Shown here: positions 24,432 through 31,141 of the stretch, one piece after another
Layout: every line of letters starts with the position of its first letter
Numbering within the stretch: the first letter of the stretch is position 1
DNA from: Streptomyces sp. NA04227
GTDB lineage: Bacteria; Actinomycetota; Actinomycetes; Streptomycetales; Streptomycetaceae
NCBI RefSeq assembly: GCF_013364195.1
Contig: NZ_CP054918.1
Span: 2,159,001-2,223,000, forward strand
Direction: 5' to 3'
Length of the DNA: 64,000 nt
Notes under the pieces: generated by a model
Seen by the model: only the letters and a program-made list of their open reading frames with translations
Databases searched by the model: none
Told to the model about the DNA's origin: nothing
Made by a program: the position numbers and the translations under genes

Positions 24432-25766
24432 TCAGCCCCGGCTCTTGTCGTTCTCCCGTGCCGGGGGCAGCCGCAGTACGAAGGAGGCGCCGCCGCGGGC
24501 GCCGGGGCCCGCGGTGAGGGTGCCGCCGTGGGCGTGGGCGACCCAGGAGGCGATGGACAGGCCGAGACCGGTGGAGCCCGAGCCGCTGCGGAACCGCTCG
24601 AACAGGGCGCCCGCCACCTGCGGGGGCAGGCCCGGGCCCGCGTCGTCGACGGTCACGATGCCGCTCGCCGAGACGGTGATCCGCACGTCGGCCGCCTCCC
24701 CGGGCGCGTGCCCGTGGGTGAGGGCGTTGCCGAGCAGATTGGCGACCGCCCTGCGCACCAGGTCGGGGTCGGCGAACACCACGGACGGCTCGGCCTCGAC
24801 GGCGACGCGGTGTCCCTCGGCGGGGGTGTCCGCCACGACCGACTCGACGAGCTGGTCCAGGCGCAGCGGTTCGCGGGCGAGCGTCGCCGTGCCGGACATC
24901 AGCCGGGCCCGGGTGAGCAGCCCGTCGACCAGGCCGCCCATGGATTCGGACAGGCGCAGGGTGCGCCGCAGCACGTCCGAGGGGTCGGTCTCGCCGCGCA
25001 GCCCGGTCTCGGCGAGCATCCGCAGCGACGCGGTCGGGGTGCGCAGGTCGTGGGCGGCGTCGGCGAGGAAGGCCTCCTGCTGGCCGAGGGCCGCGAGGGC
25101 GGGCCGGATGGCGCGCCCGGACAGCAGGTGCCCGACCACCGCCGACATGGCGACCAGGACCGCGCAGGCGCCGGTCACCAGCCAGGCGAGCCGCCGGTGG
25201 TCCGCGCGCTGCTCCGAGGCGTCGGACCAGGTGACCAGGGCGCCCTCGGGCCGGGTGTTCTCGTCGGTCTCGGCCGGGTAGTACGGCAGCGCGAACACCC
25301 GGACCGGGTCACCGCCCGGGGTGCGCCGGTCGAAGGCCACCTCGCCGTCCTCGCGCACCGCGGCCGCGGCCACGTCCCGTACGACCGAGGAGCGCAGCGG
25401 CAGGCAGGGTTTCTCCGGGGCGTGCTCGACGTTCAGCCGCAGCTTCCCGCCGGAGTGCCTGGCCGTGAGGATCGTCAGCGGCGGGCAGTCGGTGTCCACG
25501 GTGTCGACCAGGACGCGGGTGTCGAGGCCGCCGTTCTCGTCGATCTCCAGCAGGCCCAGGTCCCAGCTGGTGTCCGCGTTCATGGTCTGGTCGAGCTGCG
25601 CCCGCCACCGCTGGGCGTCGCTGCGTACCGCGAAGGCCCCCATGGCCACCACGCCGACGGCGCTGGTGAGCGCGAAGAGCACGGTGATCCGCCGACGGAG
25701 CCTGCGCACCCGGGCCGTGGGCGTGAGCGGACGCGAGCGTCGCCGACGCGGCACTCGCACTCTCAT
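24432..25766 (-). CDS. Orphan sensor histidine kinase
   Basis: 444 residues; GGGGAG lies 6 nt before the ATG. A basic N terminus, TM1 (27-47), an extracytoplasmic domain of about 145 residues with cysteines C94 and C121, and TM2 (193-215) come first. The H-box follows as AAHDLRTPTASL, with H239, the phosphorylated residue. Then the ATP-binding region: ANLLGNALTHG (N box), VDDAGPGLP (G1), STGLGLSIASWVAHAHGG (G2). It is a membrane-bound kinase that should sense an outside signal, yet no response regulator adjoins it. It lies 86 bases after the M50 protease in the same direction, as the third gene after the leader peptide, so it may sense that peptide. Confidence 0.93.
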   Translation of the reverse strand: MRVRVPRRRRSRPLTPTARVRRLRRRITVLFALTSAVGVVAMGAFAVRSDAQRWRAQLDQTMNADTSWDLGLLEIDENGGLDTRVLVDTVDTDCPPLTILTARHSGGKLRLNVEHAPEKPCLPLRSSVVRDVAAAAVREDGEVAFDRRTPGGDPVRVFALPYYPAETDENTRPEGALVTWSDASEQRADHRRLAWLVTGACAVLVAMSAVVGHLLSGRAIRPALAALGQQEAFLADAAHDLRTPTASLRMLAETGLRGETDPSDVLRRTLRLSESMGGLVDGLLTRARLMSGTATLAREPLRLDQLVESVVADTPAEGHRVAVEAEPSVVFADPDLVRRAVANLLGNALTHGHAPGEAADVRITVSASGIVTVDDAGPGLPPQVAGALFERFRSGSGSTGLGLSIASWVAHAHGGTLTAGPGARGGASFVLRLPPARENDKSRG

Positions 25767-25852
25767 CGCGAACTCCCCTGCACAGGCGGCACCGGCACCG
25801 GGTCACCATATCCACGCAGATCACCCGTGCGGTAAACGCGCGTCCGTCCCGC

Positions 25853-27694
25853 TCAGCGGCAGAGCAGCGGGCCGAGGGAGAGGCCGAGGAGGGTGGCACA
25901 GTCCTGCTCTTCGGCGGACGGCTCGGGCTCCGGCTCGTTCTTGGCGGGCTTCTCCTCCGCGGCGGGCCGCTCCTCGGCGGCGGAGGGCTCGGGCTCGGCG
26001 CTCGGTTCCCGCGGGGACGGCGAACTCTCCGCCTTCTCCTGCCCCTTGTCGCTCGTACCCGGCCGCTCGGTCGGCGCCGCAGCCGACGGCTCGCTCGGCG
26101 CACCGGTCGCGGTGTCGCGCGGAGCCTCGTCCTGGGGTGCGGGTTTGGTGTCGTGGGGGTGGGTGGGGCTGGGTGCGGGTGTGGGGGTGGTGGTGCGGGT
26201 GGGGCGGTGTGCGGTGGTCGGCTGTGGTGAGGGGATCAGGGCCCAGGCGATGAGGGCGAGGGAGGCGGCGAGGGCCAGGGTGAGGAAGGCGGCGCGGCGG
26301 CGTCGGCGGGTGAGGCGTGCGGCGAACGCGGCCCGGGTCTTCTCGGGGACGTAGCGGCGGATGAGGAAGCCGAGCAGGGAGCTGAGGAGTTGCCAGCAGA
26401 TGAGGAGGACGCCGACGAGGGGGAGCAGGAGCAGGATGATCTGCAGGAGGGCGGAGGCGACGCCGAGGACGGGGTGGGGGTTGTTGAGGGCTTCGTCGGC
26501 GAGGTTGTGGGTGGAGTCGAGGGCGGAGGCTGTCCATTGGGGCAGGCGGGTGAGGACGATGGCGAGTTGGACGGCGAGGGCGGGCAGGACGGTGAGGACC
26601 CAGACGGTGACGACGATTTGGGGCCAGCGTTTGAGGGCGTCGAGGCGGGCGTCGGCGGGTTTGCGCAGGACGGCGTGTTTGAGGATGGGGCCGATGTATT
26701 TGAAGAGGTCGGGGATGCCGACGAGGTCGGAGACGATGTAGTAGCCGTCGAAGCGGAGGGTGGGCAGGAGTTGTTGGGCCATCTCGAGGTTGGTGAAGAG
26801 GATGGCGGCGAGGATGACGGGGTTGTGGGTGTTGAGGTAGGCGGCGATGAGGGCGAGGACGAAGATCCCGTTGAAGTAGACGCCGCCGAGGTCGGTGCGT
26901 AGGCGTCCGGCGCGGCCCAGGCGGTAGGAGTTGGTGACGTCGGTGTAGAAGGCGGGCCAGACGAGGTAGATGCCGCAGCCCATGACGCCGGGTTTGACTT
27001 TGCCGTAGCGGCAGGCGGCGGCGTGGCCGCATTCGTGGAAGGCGGAGGAGGTCAGGGTCAGGGTGACCACGATGAGTACGGAGTTGGGGCTGGCCATCGA
27101 GGTGGCAACGGCGGTGCCGACGTCCTGGGAGAGGAACACCCACACCTCGCCGACCAGGACCGTGGCGACGACCGCCATCAGTACCAGTGGTGTGAACAGC
27201 CAGGCGAACAGGCCCGCGATGAACCACGTCGCCCGCTCGGAGAGCACCGCTTTACGGAACCGCAGGGTCAGGAAACTGTTCGCCTTCGGAATCTCCGGCG
27301 GCGAACCGTCGCTGTACCGCGTGATCCCCAACGGCGCCAACTTCTTGTCCATCAGATACGCGACGTGCTCGGCGGTGAAGGCACGCCCGCTGAGCTTGCC
27401 CAGTTCCTCGGCCACCTTCGCCATGACGGCATAACCGCCTTGCGTCGCCCCGGACTTGGCGCGGCGCTTTCCGGCGGGTTCCGGTTCCGCGGTGCGCTCG
27501 TGCTCCGCGATGAGTTTCGTGGCCTGGTACAGCAGCGGCGGCAGATGAATGACCTGCCCGTCGAAACGGTGCACCAGATGAGGCGGGACGCGATATCCGG
27601 ATCCCGTGAACTCGCCGACCAGTTCGGTGCCTTCGGTCAGTCCCGGCACGGGGTAATCGGCAGGCGGTGCGGTCTTTTCCGAGGGGCTGGACAC
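25853..27694 (-). CDS. Site-2 (M50) family intramembrane metalloprotease with N-terminal winged-helix-like domain
   Basis: 613 residues. Residues 30-130 resemble the winged-helix (PqqD/RRE-like) domain in front of 'peptide zinc metalloproteases' such as YydH. The HExxH motif is HECGH at 220-224 inside a membrane segment, and the third ligand is probably D316 in RFDGYY. About seven membrane segments span 156-487. A basic patch (RRRRR, 463-467) precedes the last one, so the following tail of 125 residues is outside. That tail is a Pro/Glu/Thr-rich stalk ending with cysteines C599 and C612. Such enzymes cleave membrane-embedded or leader peptides. The short peptide gene immediately upstream is the likely substrate. 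GTG start; the nearest AGGAG lies 18 nt upstream, so the start is not firm. Confidence 0.9.
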   Translation of the reverse strand: MSSPSEKTAPPADYPVPGLTEGTELVGEFTGSGYRVPPHLVHRFDGQVIHLPPLLYQATKLIAEHERTAEPEPAGKRRAKSGATQGGYAVMAKVAEELGKLSGRAFTAEHVAYLMDKKLAPLGITRYSDGSPPEIPKANSFLTLRFRKAVLSERATWFIAGLFAWLFTPLVLMAVVATVLVGEVWVFLSQDVGTAVATSMASPNSVLIVVTLTLTSSAFHECGHAAACRYGKVKPGVMGCGIYLVWPAFYTDVTNSYRLGRAGRLRTDLGGVYFNGIFVLALIAAYLNTHNPVILAAILFTNLEMAQQLLPTLRFDGYYIVSDLVGIPDLFKYIGPILKHAVLRKPADARLDALKRWPQIVVTVWVLTVLPALAVQLAIVLTRLPQWTASALDSTHNLADEALNNPHPVLGVASALLQIILLLLPLVGVLLICWQLLSSLLGFLIRRYVPEKTRAAFAARLTRRRRRAAFLTLALAASLALIAWALIPSPQPTTAHRPTRTTTPTPAPSPTHPHDTKPAPQDEAPRDTATGAPSEPSAAAPTERPGTSDKGQEKAESSPSPREPSAEPEPSAAEERPAAEEKPAKNEPEPEPSAEEQDCATLLGLSLGPLLCR

Positions 27695-27820
27695 TCGCGT
27701 ATTGATGACGATCTCCTACGGCGGACTGCCGGTGGTCACGGCCCGGAAAGGCATGACGGCTACTGCACGGACAACGAGCCGCGCACGGTGCCGGTCACGC
27801 CCGTACCGGGCACGGCCGGG

Positions 27821-27866
27821 AAAACAAAAAACGCGGGGGAGGGCGATGCGATCGCCCTCCCCCGCG
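27821..27866 (-). terminator. Strong intrinsic terminator after the leader-peptide gene
   Basis: A perfect 16-bp stem (27832-27847 paired with 27851-27866, plus-strand arm CGCGGGGGAGGGCGAT) and 3-nt loop. On the minus strand it is followed by a T-rich run (27821-27831, the complement of an A/C tract). It sits between the peptide gene and the protease gene and should make the peptide mRNA far more abundant than that of the protease. Confidence 0.93.
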
Positions 27867-27883
27867 CCCGAGGAGGAAATACC

Positions 27884-28183
27884 TCAGTGCGTGGCCGTAG
27901 CAGCCGGCACGCAGGTGAGGCTGTTGCTCGGGTTGTTCGAGCCGAGGCCCAGAGCGCCGACGAGGCCCGGGGTTCCGTGAACCTGCTGAGCCTGGCACGC
28001 CGAGGTGGAGAGGGCACCGCCGCCGTTGTCACCGCCGCCGACCGCGACAGCGCTGGAGCTCGCGCCACCGGCGTCGTGGCCGCCACCGGCGTTGTTGAAC
28101 GGAACAACGGTGGACAGGACAGCGCGCTCGGGCAGAAGCTCCCCGGTCAGACCGTCCAGCTCCTCGAAGGTGATCGCGTTCAT
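27884..28183 (-). CDS. Leader-bearing small peptide, putative RiPP or signal-peptide precursor
   Basis: 99 residues with AAAGGA 8 nt before the ATG. The N terminus (MNAITFEELDGLTGELLPER) is an acidic, amphipathic leader with a ELDGLTGELLPER segment like those of ribosomally made peptide precursors. From residue 21 the sequence turns to Val/Ser/Thr, then a Gly/Ser/Ala/Asn-rich core with GGG tracts. It has only two cysteines (C63 and C91) and ends CVPAATATH. No modification enzyme (radical SAM, YcaO, lanthionine synthetase) is in the window. It is followed by a very strong terminator and then an M50 protease and a sensor kinase in the same direction. It may instead be a small exported structural protein; the leader and neighbours favour a processed peptide. 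Confidence 0.8.
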   Translation of the reverse strand: MNAITFEELDGLTGELLPERAVLSTVVPFNNAGGGHDAGGASSSAVAVGGGDNGGGALSTSACQAQQVHGTPGLVGALGLGSNNPSNSLTCVPAATATH

Positions 28184-28747
28184 GCTTTTCCTTTCATGGC
28201 CACGGACGGCTTGCCCCGTCCGACGCAATGAGAACTGGGCAAAAGGGTTTTGAGTAACGGCAGTTCACTCGTCCGCGAAAAAACGGGCGAGCTGCTGATT
28301 CATTTATAGGACGATCCTTCCGGCGGCACTCTTTCTTCCCGCTCGGCACTTGTCGGTTCTTCACGGCCGATAACCGGTCGATAAACCGGCGCGCGCACCA
28401 CGCGCCACGCTCGGTCGGCCCGAACAGGGTCGGCGGCGCGAACACGGTCCGTCCTCTCGACTACGGCCGGTAAGGAAGTGGCGGACGGGCGGAGAGGAGG
28501 GGCGCGGCCAGGCTCCACGAACGCCCGCCCGTCTACTGGCATGGACATGCTCACCCGCCCCACCTGCGGAAACGTCAGCCCGCCTCCCCCACCGGACGCC
28601 GCCGATCGCTGCTGCCCCGTTTTTGGGTGACCATGACTAACGGGGCGCGGATCTTTCGCGCCCGCGAGGTCCGCGAGGCATCGCGACCGGACGAGGCAGG
28701 GCCGGACGGCGAGACGCTCAGTGGGGCGAGCCCGGCGAAGGAGCGAC
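28184..28747. other. Divergent intergenic region between peptide and phosphatase genes
   Basis: 564 bases. It must hold the promoter of the peptide gene (minus) and of the phosphatase gene (plus). A TATAAA hexamer on the minus strand (28303-28308) could be a -10 element, but no -35 box stands at the usual distance. An imperfect hairpin with a run of A (CTCGTCCG/CGGGCGAG around 28268-28291) lies between it and the gene. No further small gene with a ribosome-binding site was found on either strand. Confidence 0.45.
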
Positions 28748-31141
28748 GTGGCCGAAGCTCAGGACAGGCGGGACGACGATCGCCATCCGTCGTCGAGGCC
28801 ATCCCCGACCGGGACGGCGGGCCACGACGGCGGTCCCGTGGCGACCGGGCCACCGGGCGGCGCCGTGACCACGGCGGACCCCGGCGACGACGCGACCACG
28901 GCCGACCCGGGCGACGAGCGGTCCGTGGCCGAGGCGATGGCCAAGCTGCTCGGCTGCCCCGACCCGCAGTCGCTGCTCACCACCGCGATGGACGTCTGGC
29001 TGACCGGGGTGGGCGCCTCCTCCGGCCTGGTGCATCTGCTCCAGGACGACGGGTGGATGCGGATGGCCATGGGCGTCGGCTACCCCGAGGAGGCGCTCGA
29101 CTCCTTCCGGCTGATACCCCCGGACGCCGAACAGCCGCTCGTGCGGGTGGCCCGTACCCGCGTCCCGGAACACGTGCTCGCCGCGGAGTACCGGGACCTC
29201 TTCCCCGTCGGCGTCTCACCGCGGCGGCCGACCTCCTTCAGTGTGCTGCCGCTGCTCGTGGACGACCGGTGCCTGGGCACGCTCATGGTGCAGCTCGACC
29301 GGCTCGATCCGCTGTCCGGTGTGGAGGAGCACGAGCTGACGCTGATCACCACCGTCTGCGCGCACCGGCTCGACCATCTGCTCTCGATGGGTACCGGCGC
29401 CGAGAGCGACGAACGGCTCGACCAGGCCCTGCGGCTCATCCAGGGCCGCTCCCGGGCGGCCCGGCTCGAACTGGCCATGACCAACGCCGAGATCGGCTCC
29501 TTCGACTGGGACTTCGCCTCCGGGAAACTGATCTGGGACGACCGGATCTGCCGTCTGTTCGGTCTGGAGCCGGAGGAGTTCGACGAACGCCACGAGACCT
29601 TCATCGGCGCGATCCACCCGGACGACCGGGAGCAGGTCGAGGAGCTCCTGGAGCGGACCAAGGAGACCGGGATCTACCGGGGCGAGTACCGCGTCGTCTG
29701 GCCGGACGGCAGCGTCCACTGGATCGCCGCGGGCGGCAAGGTCGTCTACGACACCCAGGGACGGCCGATGGGCATGCTGGGCGTGGCCCAGGACCGCACC
29801 GAGCAGCGCCGCAACGAGGAACTCAGCGCCGCACGCCAGCAGTTCATCCTGGACGTCTCGCGCGCCTTCAGCGACGCGATGTCCACCCAGAGCGTGATCG
29901 AGAAGGTATACGAGACCGTCCTGCCGGGTCTCGGCGGCAGCTCCACCGCGCTGTACGTCAGTGAGCGCACCGGGATGCATCTGGTCGGCACCCGCGGGCT
30001 GCACGGCGAGTCGCTGCGCCGGCTGGAGCGCCTCACCGCCCTGGACGCGGGCCATCCGCTGCAACGGGAGCTGCGGATGGACCGGCCGATGTTCTTCGGC
30101 GACCGCGAGGCCCTGACCGCCTCGGTCTGGCAGCCGGACCTGGTGCCCGAGGAGGAGGTGCAGGCCTCGGCCCTGCTGCCGCTGACCACCGGCGAGGACC
30201 TGGTCGGCATCTGGGTCGTCAACTACTCCGAGCCGCACGAGTTCACACCGGAGGTCCAGGTCGCGCACACCGCGGCCGCCGGTATTCTCGGCCAGTCGCT
30301 GGCCCGCGCCGAGCAGTTCGACGCCCGGCGCCGCCAGATGAACGAGCTCCAGCAGCTGATGCTGCCGCGCACCATCCCGGACGTGCCGCGCCTGGAGGCG
30401 GCGGTGCGCTATCTGCCGGGTTCGCAGGGGCTGCACGTGGGCGGCGACTGGTACGACATCCTCAGCATGCCGGGCGGGCGGGTCACCCTGGCGATCGGGG
30501 ACGTGCAGGGTCACAGTGCCGAAGCGGCCGCCGTGATGGGGCAGTTGAGGACCTCGATGTGGGCCCACGCCAAGATGGGGCCGACGCCCACCGCGCTGAT
30601 GCAGCTCGGCAACCACACCCTCGCCGACCTCGACACCGAGCTGTTCGCGACGAGTTGTCTGATCGAGCTCGACCCGGTCAGCGGCGACTACACGGCGGTG
30701 CGCGCCGGACACCCGTACCCCTTGGTGGTGCACCCCGACGGGCGGGTGCACGAGCTGGAGGTGCCCGGCGGGCTGCCGCTCGGCACTTTCGCCGACAGCG
30801 AGTACCCGGACCTGGACGGGACCCTGCCGCCGGGCGCCATCCTGCTGCTGTTCACCGACGGTCTGGTGGAGCGCCGCGACGCCGACTACACGGAGGCCGT
30901 CTACGAGCTGATGCACGCCCTCGCGCAGTGGACGCGGGAACGCCCGCCCGACGGGGATCCGGACGGCGACGGCCCGGAGGGACGGCGTACGGTCGCCGCG
31001 GCCTCCGGCGAGGGCGGCCCCGCGCAGTCCATCGCCAACAGCCTCTCCCTGGACGCCCTCGCGGATCTGGTCGTCACGCCCGCGCTGTCGCGCAGTTCGC
31101 ACGACGACATCGCGGTTCTCCTTGTACGGCGCACCAGTTGA
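28748..31141 (+). CDS. SpoIIE/PP2C-family phosphatase with GAF and PAS domains
   Basis: 797 residues from a GTG with GAAGGAG upstream. In order: an Asp/Gly/Pro-rich N tail; a GAF domain (about 45-200, with SVLPLLVDDRCLGTLMVQLD); a PAS domain (about 225-350, IGSFDWDFASGKLIWDDRICR to WIAAGG, with the PAC-type WRQDR replaced by AQDRTEQ); a second GAF (about 360-540); and the phosphatase domain (about 550-797) with GGDWYDILSM, AIGDVQGHSAEAAAVMGQLR, LFTDGLVERRD and HDDIAVLLVRR. Asp residues in GGDWYD, GDVQGH and DD chelate the two metals. Such proteins dephosphorylate anti-sigma-factor antagonists in the partner-switching control of sigma factors. Its substrate is unknown; no antagonist gene adjoins it. 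Confidence 0.93.
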   Translation: MAEAQDRRDDDRHPSSRPSPTGTAGHDGGPVATGPPGGAVTTADPGDDATTADPGDERSVAEAMAKLLGCPDPQSLLTTAMDVWLTGVGASSGLVHLLQDDGWMRMAMGVGYPEEALDSFRLIPPDAEQPLVRVARTRVPEHVLAAEYRDLFPVGVSPRRPTSFSVLPLLVDDRCLGTLMVQLDRLDPLSGVEEHELTLITTVCAHRLDHLLSMGTGAESDERLDQALRLIQGRSRAARLELAMTNAEIGSFDWDFASGKLIWDDRICRLFGLEPEEFDERHETFIGAIHPDDREQVEELLERTKETGIYRGEYRVVWPDGSVHWIAAGGKVVYDTQGRPMGMLGVAQDRTEQRRNEELSAARQQFILDVSRAFSDAMSTQSVIEKVYETVLPGLGGSSTALYVSERTGMHLVGTRGLHGESLRRLERLTALDAGHPLQRELRMDRPMFFGDREALTASVWQPDLVPEEEVQASALLPLTTGEDLVGIWVVNYSEPHEFTPEVQVAHTAAAGILGQSLARAEQFDARRRQMNELQQLMLPRTIPDVPRLEAAVRYLPGSQGLHVGGDWYDILSMPGGRVTLAIGDVQGHSAEAAAVMGQLRTSMWAHAKMGPTPTALMQLGNHTLADLDTELFATSCLIELDPVSGDYTAVRAGHPYPLVVHPDGRVHELEVPGGLPLGTFADSEYPDLDGTLPPGAILLLFTDGLVERRDADYTEAVYELMHALAQWTRERPPDGDPDGDGPEGRRTVAAASGEGGPAQSIANSLSLDALADLVVTPALSRSSHDDIAVLLVRRTS

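Follow-up and report, generated by a model that had tools for sequence, protein, structure and literature searches.

A conserved gene pair for a two-cysteine peptide and a site-2-type protease in Streptomyces and other actinobacteria

Results

Three genes at one locus

The locus described here lies in Streptomyces sp. NA04227, within a window of 64,000 nucleotides (contig NZ_CP054918.1, positions 2,159,001 to 2,223,000) to which all positions below refer unless another locus is named. Its minus strand carries, one after the other, a gene for a short peptide with two Cys (27884..28183), a gene for a zinc metalloprotease with an HECGH motif (25853..27694), and a gene for a histidine kinase of 444 residues without an adjoining response regulator (24432..25766). 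The original prediction, made from the DNA letters, had placed the three genes correctly and regarded them as one peptide-signalling or RiPP (ribosomally synthesized and post-translationally modified peptide) system. As described below, peptide and protease recur together across genomes and the kinase does not accompany them.

The precursor peptide

The peptide gene starts with ATG and encodes 99 residues; its product is called peptide A hereafter. A database search returned 228 relatives at E ≤ 0.001, and nearly all of the 120 that were listed are hypothetical, uncharacterized or nameless. Neither Pfam nor NCBIfam gave a match for the window peptide. The UniRef name 'Thiocillin family RiPP', attached to one relative (P0014), was rejected, as neither of these two collections supports it; nor is there support for plasmid spread, as a search of a plasmid collection gave no match. 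Comparison of the window gene with that of S. physcomitrii gave 45 nucleotide differences, 30 of them at the third base of a codon; 24 codon differences are synonymous and 12 non-synonymous. The third-position excess is weak between the two copies found in the NA04227 genome (11, 13 and 18 differences at codon positions 1, 2 and 3; 13 synonymous and 15 non-synonymous codon differences). Judged by its relatives, the window peptide is a real gene.

For a wider description, peptides were collected from the loci analyzed below using the leader motif LP-x-R-x-x-[LM]-[SGT] and the presence of at least one Cys as a filter. Every one of the 133 peptides obtained has exactly two Cys after the leader. 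They share an acidic leader, a variable linker of Gly, Ser and Asn, and a near-constant two-Cys tail. In peptide A the leader comprises residues 1–24 (28112..28183), with the motif L-x5-E-x-LP-x-R-x-x-[LM]-[SG] (among 65 aligned peptides L9, L17, P18, R20 and the two Cys never vary, and E15 hardly does); the tail comprises residues 57–99 (27887..28015), with Cys63 and Cys91. Dimensions vary little: the leader has 24–29 residues up to and including the motif in 121 of the 133 peptides (range 21–34), with, 26 or 27 residues between the two Cys in 108, and 8 or 9 residues after the second Cys in 114. Lys and Arg together make up 1.3% of the residues that follow the leader and are absent altogether from that part in 62 peptides. 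Gly, Ala, Ser and Thr are abundant in the products, which nearly lack a membrane-spanning stretch.

The AlphaFold2 model of peptide A has a predicted local distance difference test (pLDDT) score of 61 as a whole, with low confidence in leader and linker. In the tail it shows a beta-hairpin with strands at residues 57–68 and 86–98 (block mean pLDDT 73–84 over residues 61–99). A Foldseek search with this model gave no match at E ≤ 0.001. Besides the constant Cys count and the predicted hairpin, the tail is regarded as the probable core because one relative, P0086, carries a single leader followed by two tandem tails, that is, a duplication of the whole core. Moreover, a locus of S. ureilyticus (L102, 10945-11178) encodes a shortened Cys tail behind what looks by eye like a Sec-type signal, about 350 bases from a leadered peptide and in divergent orientation; four database proteins of this kind were found, itself among them. 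The existence of such a version suggests that the Cys tail is extracellular and works outside the cell.

Peptide and protease occur together

Co-occurrence was examined across the genus, in 392 genomes. Relatives of the peptide were detected in 14 of them with a profile built from 11 peptides. A single protease query detected 86 genomes at E ≤ 1e-10, and 14 with at least 58% identity; these 14 are exactly the genomes that harbor the peptide. In the 12 genomes where the distance was measured (G000 and G129 were left out), the nearest peptide match lies 87–439 bases from the protease match.

A scan with a protease alignment, using one genome per species, yielded 73 loci, mainly from Streptomyces and Actinomadura, with others in Amycolatopsis, Actinacidiphila and one Acidimicrobiia bin. 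At least one peptide lies upstream of the protease in 70 of these loci. Of the remaining three, two (L167 and L171) are on contigs that start inside the protease gene, and one (L179) has a peptide of another type. A set of 75 segments, with the two NA04227 copies included, was used for subsequent comparisons: 72 segments contain the 133 peptides, with two peptides in 52 segments, one in 16, three in 3 and four in 1. If peptides are classified by the residues that precede the first Cys, A-like and B-like forms are found together in 53 of the 72 segments. The usual arrangement is thus two different peptides, A and B, per single protease. In a separate case (L106, G129:C1:7835283-7835573), a peptide A stands alone, with no protease recognized within the 19 kb read and proteases elsewhere in the genome.

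No description of these peptides was found in the literature searched, a search that most subscription journals lay beyond. The pair apparently represents a conserved, undescribed peptide-making module of filamentous bacteria of the soil, and to that extent the association proposed in the original prediction is borne out.

A fuller copy in the same genome

The NA04227 genome is a single contig of 7.9 Mb, and a second, fuller locus (L017) lies 4.6 Mb away from the first. Its peptide A is 91% identical to that of the window and its protease 86% identical; it also encodes a peptide B (46%), which the window copy lacks. Comparison of the two protease genes in blocks of 60 bases shows 57–60 identical positions per block from 27357 to 26158, and just 20–57 per block outside those limits. 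Apparently gene conversion has kept the membrane core alike, whereas the N-terminal linker and the C-terminal stalk diverge. The window copy would be a reduced duplicate, with peptide A alone, of the fuller locus.

The protease

The protease gene, whose start codon is uncertain, encodes 613 residues. The NCBIfam model NF041824 (daptide_HExxH) matches it with 78.3 bits, and the protease of another locus (L019) with 104.9 bits, below the cut-off of 300; the epipeptide model NF058609 gives 39–46 bits (39 for the window) and has a cut-off of 225. Kinship with the site-2 proteases of daptides and epipeptides, previously predicted, is supported at that sub-threshold level. The HE-x-GH motif (HECGH in the window, residues 220–224, 27023..27037) and the downstream residues D316 and G317 do not vary among 59 aligned members; strongly hydrophobic segments are present as well. 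By its HExxH motif and downstream Asp, the protein fits a site-2 (M50) intramembrane metalloprotease.

In the AlphaFold2 model (mean pLDDT 85), an N-terminal domain of three strands and three helices (27314..27640) precedes the membrane core. The order beta-beta-beta-alpha-alpha-alpha is that of RRE domains. The winged-helix-like domain foreseen at this end of the protein stands as a predicted topology; Pfam models for RRE and PqqD gave no match in 18 members. The protease model matches solved site-2 proteases weakly, and Foldseek gave no match at E ≤ 0.001. When sequences of the Protein Data Bank were searched, the protease profile returned a single weak match, a designed protein, and the profile of the N-terminal domain returned the same designed protein together with a few weak, unrelated ones.

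A C-terminal stalk rich in Pro and Glu (25856..26221) ends in C-x12-C-R. A two-Cys end is found in 8 of 19 proteases listed (of 21), namely both NA04227 copies, L173, L174, L108, L109, L112 and L125. The stalk had been thought part of the system; it is not essential, because 27 Actinomadura proteases, at 426–460 residues counted from where the N-terminal domain begins, are too short to hold one. The stalk ends, with the pattern C-x(10-16)-C and hydrophobic residues in between (near 25856 in the window), vaguely resemble short peptide cores. The likeness may reflect mimicry or docking.

A leader motif that outlasts its tails

The next branch of the protease family (39–43% identity) adjoins a different peptide, with the leader ESAELLPGREALG and without the Cys pair. 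Peptides of this second family have only the leader motif [AG]ELLP-x-R-x-x-L in common with the first. A profile built from them detected 45 of the 392 genomes, exactly those that contain the next protease branch. Loci of this kind in other Streptomyces (L083-L096) encode peptides of 70–72 residues (ESAELLPGREALGRLKFSF...), often in 2–3 tandem copies, and an Xre-like regulator, an open reading frame (ORF) of 86 residues and a secreted protein lie alongside in most of them. In three of these loci (L094-L096) there are nearby genes that look rodlin-like.

The search was then widened to a class-wide sample of 394 genomes from 137 genera, with a protease threshold of E ≤ 1e-60, and matches were obtained in 58 genomes and 22 genera. 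Fourteen of 30 loci examined have LP-x-R peptides upstream, eight of them in Streptomyces (most already counted) and six elsewhere. The latter revealed a third tail, placed after LP-x-R-x-x-M-S beside the protease in six genomes from three other families. Peptides of this third type (L179:6924-9644, L211, L212, L213, L216, L217 and L218) carry the motif LP[DE]RE[AQ]MS, with one VPDRE, followed by tails of the NAN-x-AAPVNAAVAANVLSD type or repeated ones, and are distributed among other actinobacterial families and the Acidimicrobiia bin. Under simple ORF rules no LP-x-R peptide was found upstream in the other 16 loci, among which L214 (and L215 too, by its length) has fewer than 200 bases of upstream sequence. 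Many of the protease relatives at L219-L227, L230, L231 and L234-L236 have long open frames of about 750–1100 residues, and no upstream LP-x-R peptide was recognizable at these loci under the simple rules.

A profile comparison of the second and third tails gave an hhalign probability of 59% (P 9e-5), and they may be related to each other; the Cys tail gave no match with the second tail. By these comparisons, the leader motif tracks the protease while the tails change. Its recurrence with changing tails is the best evidence that this motif is the part read by the protease family.

A stem between the two genes

On the minus strand, the space between the peptide and protease genes holds a terminator-like stem followed by a T-run (27829..27869). 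The stem has 19 pairs, with a folding free energy of -47.6 kcal/mol and a z-score of -6.5. Perfect stems of at least 12 pairs, located within 90 bases past the peptide stop codon, are found in 39 of 72 segments, compared with 0.07 expected from shuffles.

Discussion

A proposal for peptide maturation

The pairing of peptide and protease across genomes leads us to propose, with moderate confidence, a two-gene maturation module in which the leader is removed, and the product perhaps exported, without conserved peptide chemistry. Its products would be secreted and probably disulfide-bonded. In the cytosol the RRE-like domain at the N-terminus would receive the leader, and the short hydrophobic stretch right after LP-x-R would enter the active site in the membrane, to be cut close to the conserved [LM]-[SG]. 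The remainder would then be exported, perhaps by way of the protease or together with it. For EpeP, a review on leader proteases describes such a double role in cleavage and export as presumed (PMC10885120). Outside the cell the two Cys may close a disulfide across the beta-hairpin. A terminator-like stem past the peptide gene would keep the peptide in excess over the protease.

As for the nature of the product, a secreted surface or matrix peptide fits better than a cationic antimicrobial. This leaning is based on the near absence of Lys and Arg, the richness in Gly, Ala, Ser and Thr, the predicted beta-hairpin, the usual pairing of A and B, and occasional neighbors that appear chaplin- or rodlin-like by eye. 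A role as a signal would be less probable, as would the two-peptide bacteriocin considered below.

A clear T-run follows few of the perfect stems found after peptide genes. Recurring neighbors weaken the proposal slightly: a luciferase-like oxidoreductase gene is present in the flanks of 33 of the 75 segments (L017, L173 and 31 of 37 from Actinomadura), and a PP2C phosphatase gene in 30 of 37 Actinomadura segments and in 4 of the other 38 (L017, L108, L117 and L173).

Further modification of the peptide

The latter genes are relevant to the alternative that survives best, a classical RiPP pathway in which the tail is further modified by a distant enzyme or by the luciferase-like oxidoreductase of Actinomadura and of the second NA04227 copy. 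A leader and core layout with an RRE-like domain is typical of RiPPs according to the daptide report (PMC10036551), a figure legend of which also names luciferase-like proteins among common cluster genes; in addition, the invariant Cys lie amid Ser/Thr-rich surroundings. On the other hand, 42 of the 75 segments have no luciferase-like gene; it occurs in just 2 of the 38 that are not from Actinomadura, and the side of the module on which it lies differs between the two genera. A Sec-type version of the short tail would, moreover, bypass cytosolic enzymes. We consider further modification rather unlikely.

The neighborhood offers no other candidate of wide distribution. Neighbors were clustered from ORFs of at least 80 residues with a simple gene caller, which placed the protease itself in a cluster in just 64 of the 75 segments; the 28 largest clusters were listed, and 20 neighbors were scanned with Pfam. 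Apart from peptide and protease, no gene with a fixed place recurs across genera among the 28 clusters, nor is any enzyme shared across genera there besides those already mentioned. Radical SAM, YcaO and lanthionine enzymes, whose absence had been pointed out for the window, were not seen among recurring or Pfam-scanned neighbors at other loci either. Other genes that recur in Actinomadura are ferritin-like and esterase genes, as identified with Pfam, which assigns the phosphatase to SpoIIE/PP2C; PP2C apart, the remaining scanned neighbors have a housekeeping or regulatory look. The luciferase-like and PP2C genes, which take other positions relative to the module at the few Streptomyces loci that have them, are treated as synteny because they are missing from most Streptomyces loci, and all four were set aside as partners, mainly as Actinomadura genus synteny. 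The luciferase-like or the PP2C gene may still be part of the pathway. In L017:3951-7367 and L173:9213-12833, a phosphatase/luciferase-like region lies near the module. A separate SpoIIE gene is located upstream of the window peptide (28721-31141).

Other roles for the peptides and the kinase

A two-peptide bacteriocin, in which A and B act jointly on competitors, would account for the presence of A-like and B-like forms in the same segment. A membrane peptidase, EpeP, does mature the toxin EPE (PMC12871923). The products discussed here are, however, nearly devoid of Lys, Arg and a membrane-spanning stretch, and in the recurring neighbor clusters listed neither an immunity gene nor an ABC transporter was seen. 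We regard a bacteriocin as unlikely. Alternatively, the peptide might sit on the protease as a regulator or inhibitor while the true substrate is another membrane protein. Small proteins, BofA among them, are reported to block SpoIVFB. Several tandem, differing peptides per protease, swapped tails behind a fixed leader, one leader with two cores in P0086, and the Sec-type tail argue together for a released product and make such a role very doubtful.

The kinase deserves separate comment. At E ≤ 1e-15, a tblastn search with the kinase found zero matches in the other 74 segments, and weak cluster mates are all more than 7 kb away from the module. The fuller NA04227 locus has no kinase match within the 20 kb read. 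Of 41 genomes searched, its own included, five besides its own have an orthologue. In the four of them where the gene directly upstream could be read, it looks by eye like a response regulator, a partner that is missing from the window. A peptide search in two of the five genomes found no peptides in either. Two Cys are indeed present in the outside part of the kinase, as they are at the end of the protease stalk, but the proposed role in sensing the peptide does not hold: both L182 and L183, the orthologues compared, retain the kinase pair, and because the L182 genome was searched and is peptide-less, the pair is no sign of peptide sensing. A self-sensing trio in which the protease frees the peptide and the kinase detects it is highly improbable on these grounds, even though the three window genes are adjacent on one strand. 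The prediction that all three would be conserved side by side is contradicted by the comparison of loci, which refutes the trio as a conserved system and leaves the kinase rejected as a partner. In all likelihood the window kinase is an ordinary sensor that lost its regulator; by its distribution it is a chance neighbor of the module, where it would persist as a leftover.

A possible general route

Beyond the maturation module proposed above, it is possible, and we suggest it tentatively, that the loci represent a general and undescribed actinobacterial secretion route. An LP-x-R-x-x-[LM]-[SG] leader would be read by the RRE-like domain, and the site-2 protease joined to that domain would cut and release the peptide without a Sec signal, an ABC transporter or peptide chemistry. 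The cargo would be beta-rich peptides of the surface or matrix, with three different tails or more: two-Cys hairpins, KFSF...QSI-x-x-Q, and NAN-x-AAPVNAAVAANVLSD. Whatever the product, the rule that a leader motif goes with a single branch of the protease was observed in Streptomyces, Actinomadura, Amycolatopsis and a number of other families. Peptides A and B are candidates for unrecognized surface material of filamentous bacteria. Should trimming and release both be the work of the protease, the module would offer a very simple system to study how a site-2 protease chooses and releases a soluble leader peptide, a question that is entangled with peptide chemistry in epipeptides and daptides.

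Comparison with known systems

Chaplins and rodlins are surface peptides of Streptomyces. Chaplins resemble the peptides of the module in being short and having two Cys, as their examples in the NA04227 genome illustrate. The leadered peptides differ from them in lacking a Sec signal. Homology of the Cys tail with chaplins was discarded, as hhalign gave a probability of 0.2% against those of the same genome, and Pfam ChpA-C (PF03777) did not match the window peptide, P0014, P0080 or P0086. UniRef calls the Sec version (P0121) a 'Chaplin domain-containing protein', a name not taken as homology given the negative profile comparison. One locus (L107) lies near genes that look chaplin-like by eye.

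The epipeptide system (EpeX/EpeP, YydF/YydH) offers a further comparison. There, too, a membrane metalloprotease matures, and maybe exports, a small peptide, and a terminator follows the precursor gene and separates it from the enzyme genes at the epeX locus (PMC10885120, PMC12871923). In contrast, no radical SAM epimerase or immunity transporter was seen near the module among the listed clusters and the 20 Pfam-scanned neighbors, the module peptides have a two-Cys hairpin tail, and the protease remains at 39–46 bits with NF058609.

Daptides share with the module a protease of the same superfamily (78–105 bits with NF041824), represented there by the RRE-fused site-2 protease MpaP/DapP. According to PMC10036551, MpaP is an RRE-dependent intramembrane peptidase that takes off daptide leaders. 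A further likeness is that the protease gene adjoins several short precursors whose leader motif is conserved. The module protease lies, however, far below the family cut-off; its leader motif is LP-x-R-x-x-[LM]-[SG] rather than ELExMEAP, and its C-termini vary, unlike the invariant C-terminal Thr of daptides. A decarboxylase, an aminotransferase, a methyltransferase or an ABC transporter appeared neither by eye among the 28 clusters listed nor among the 20 neighbors scanned, in a survey that used no models of these proteins. Judged by these likenesses and differences, the module would work like those of daptides and epipeptides, yet it stands apart from both families in the membership features tested.

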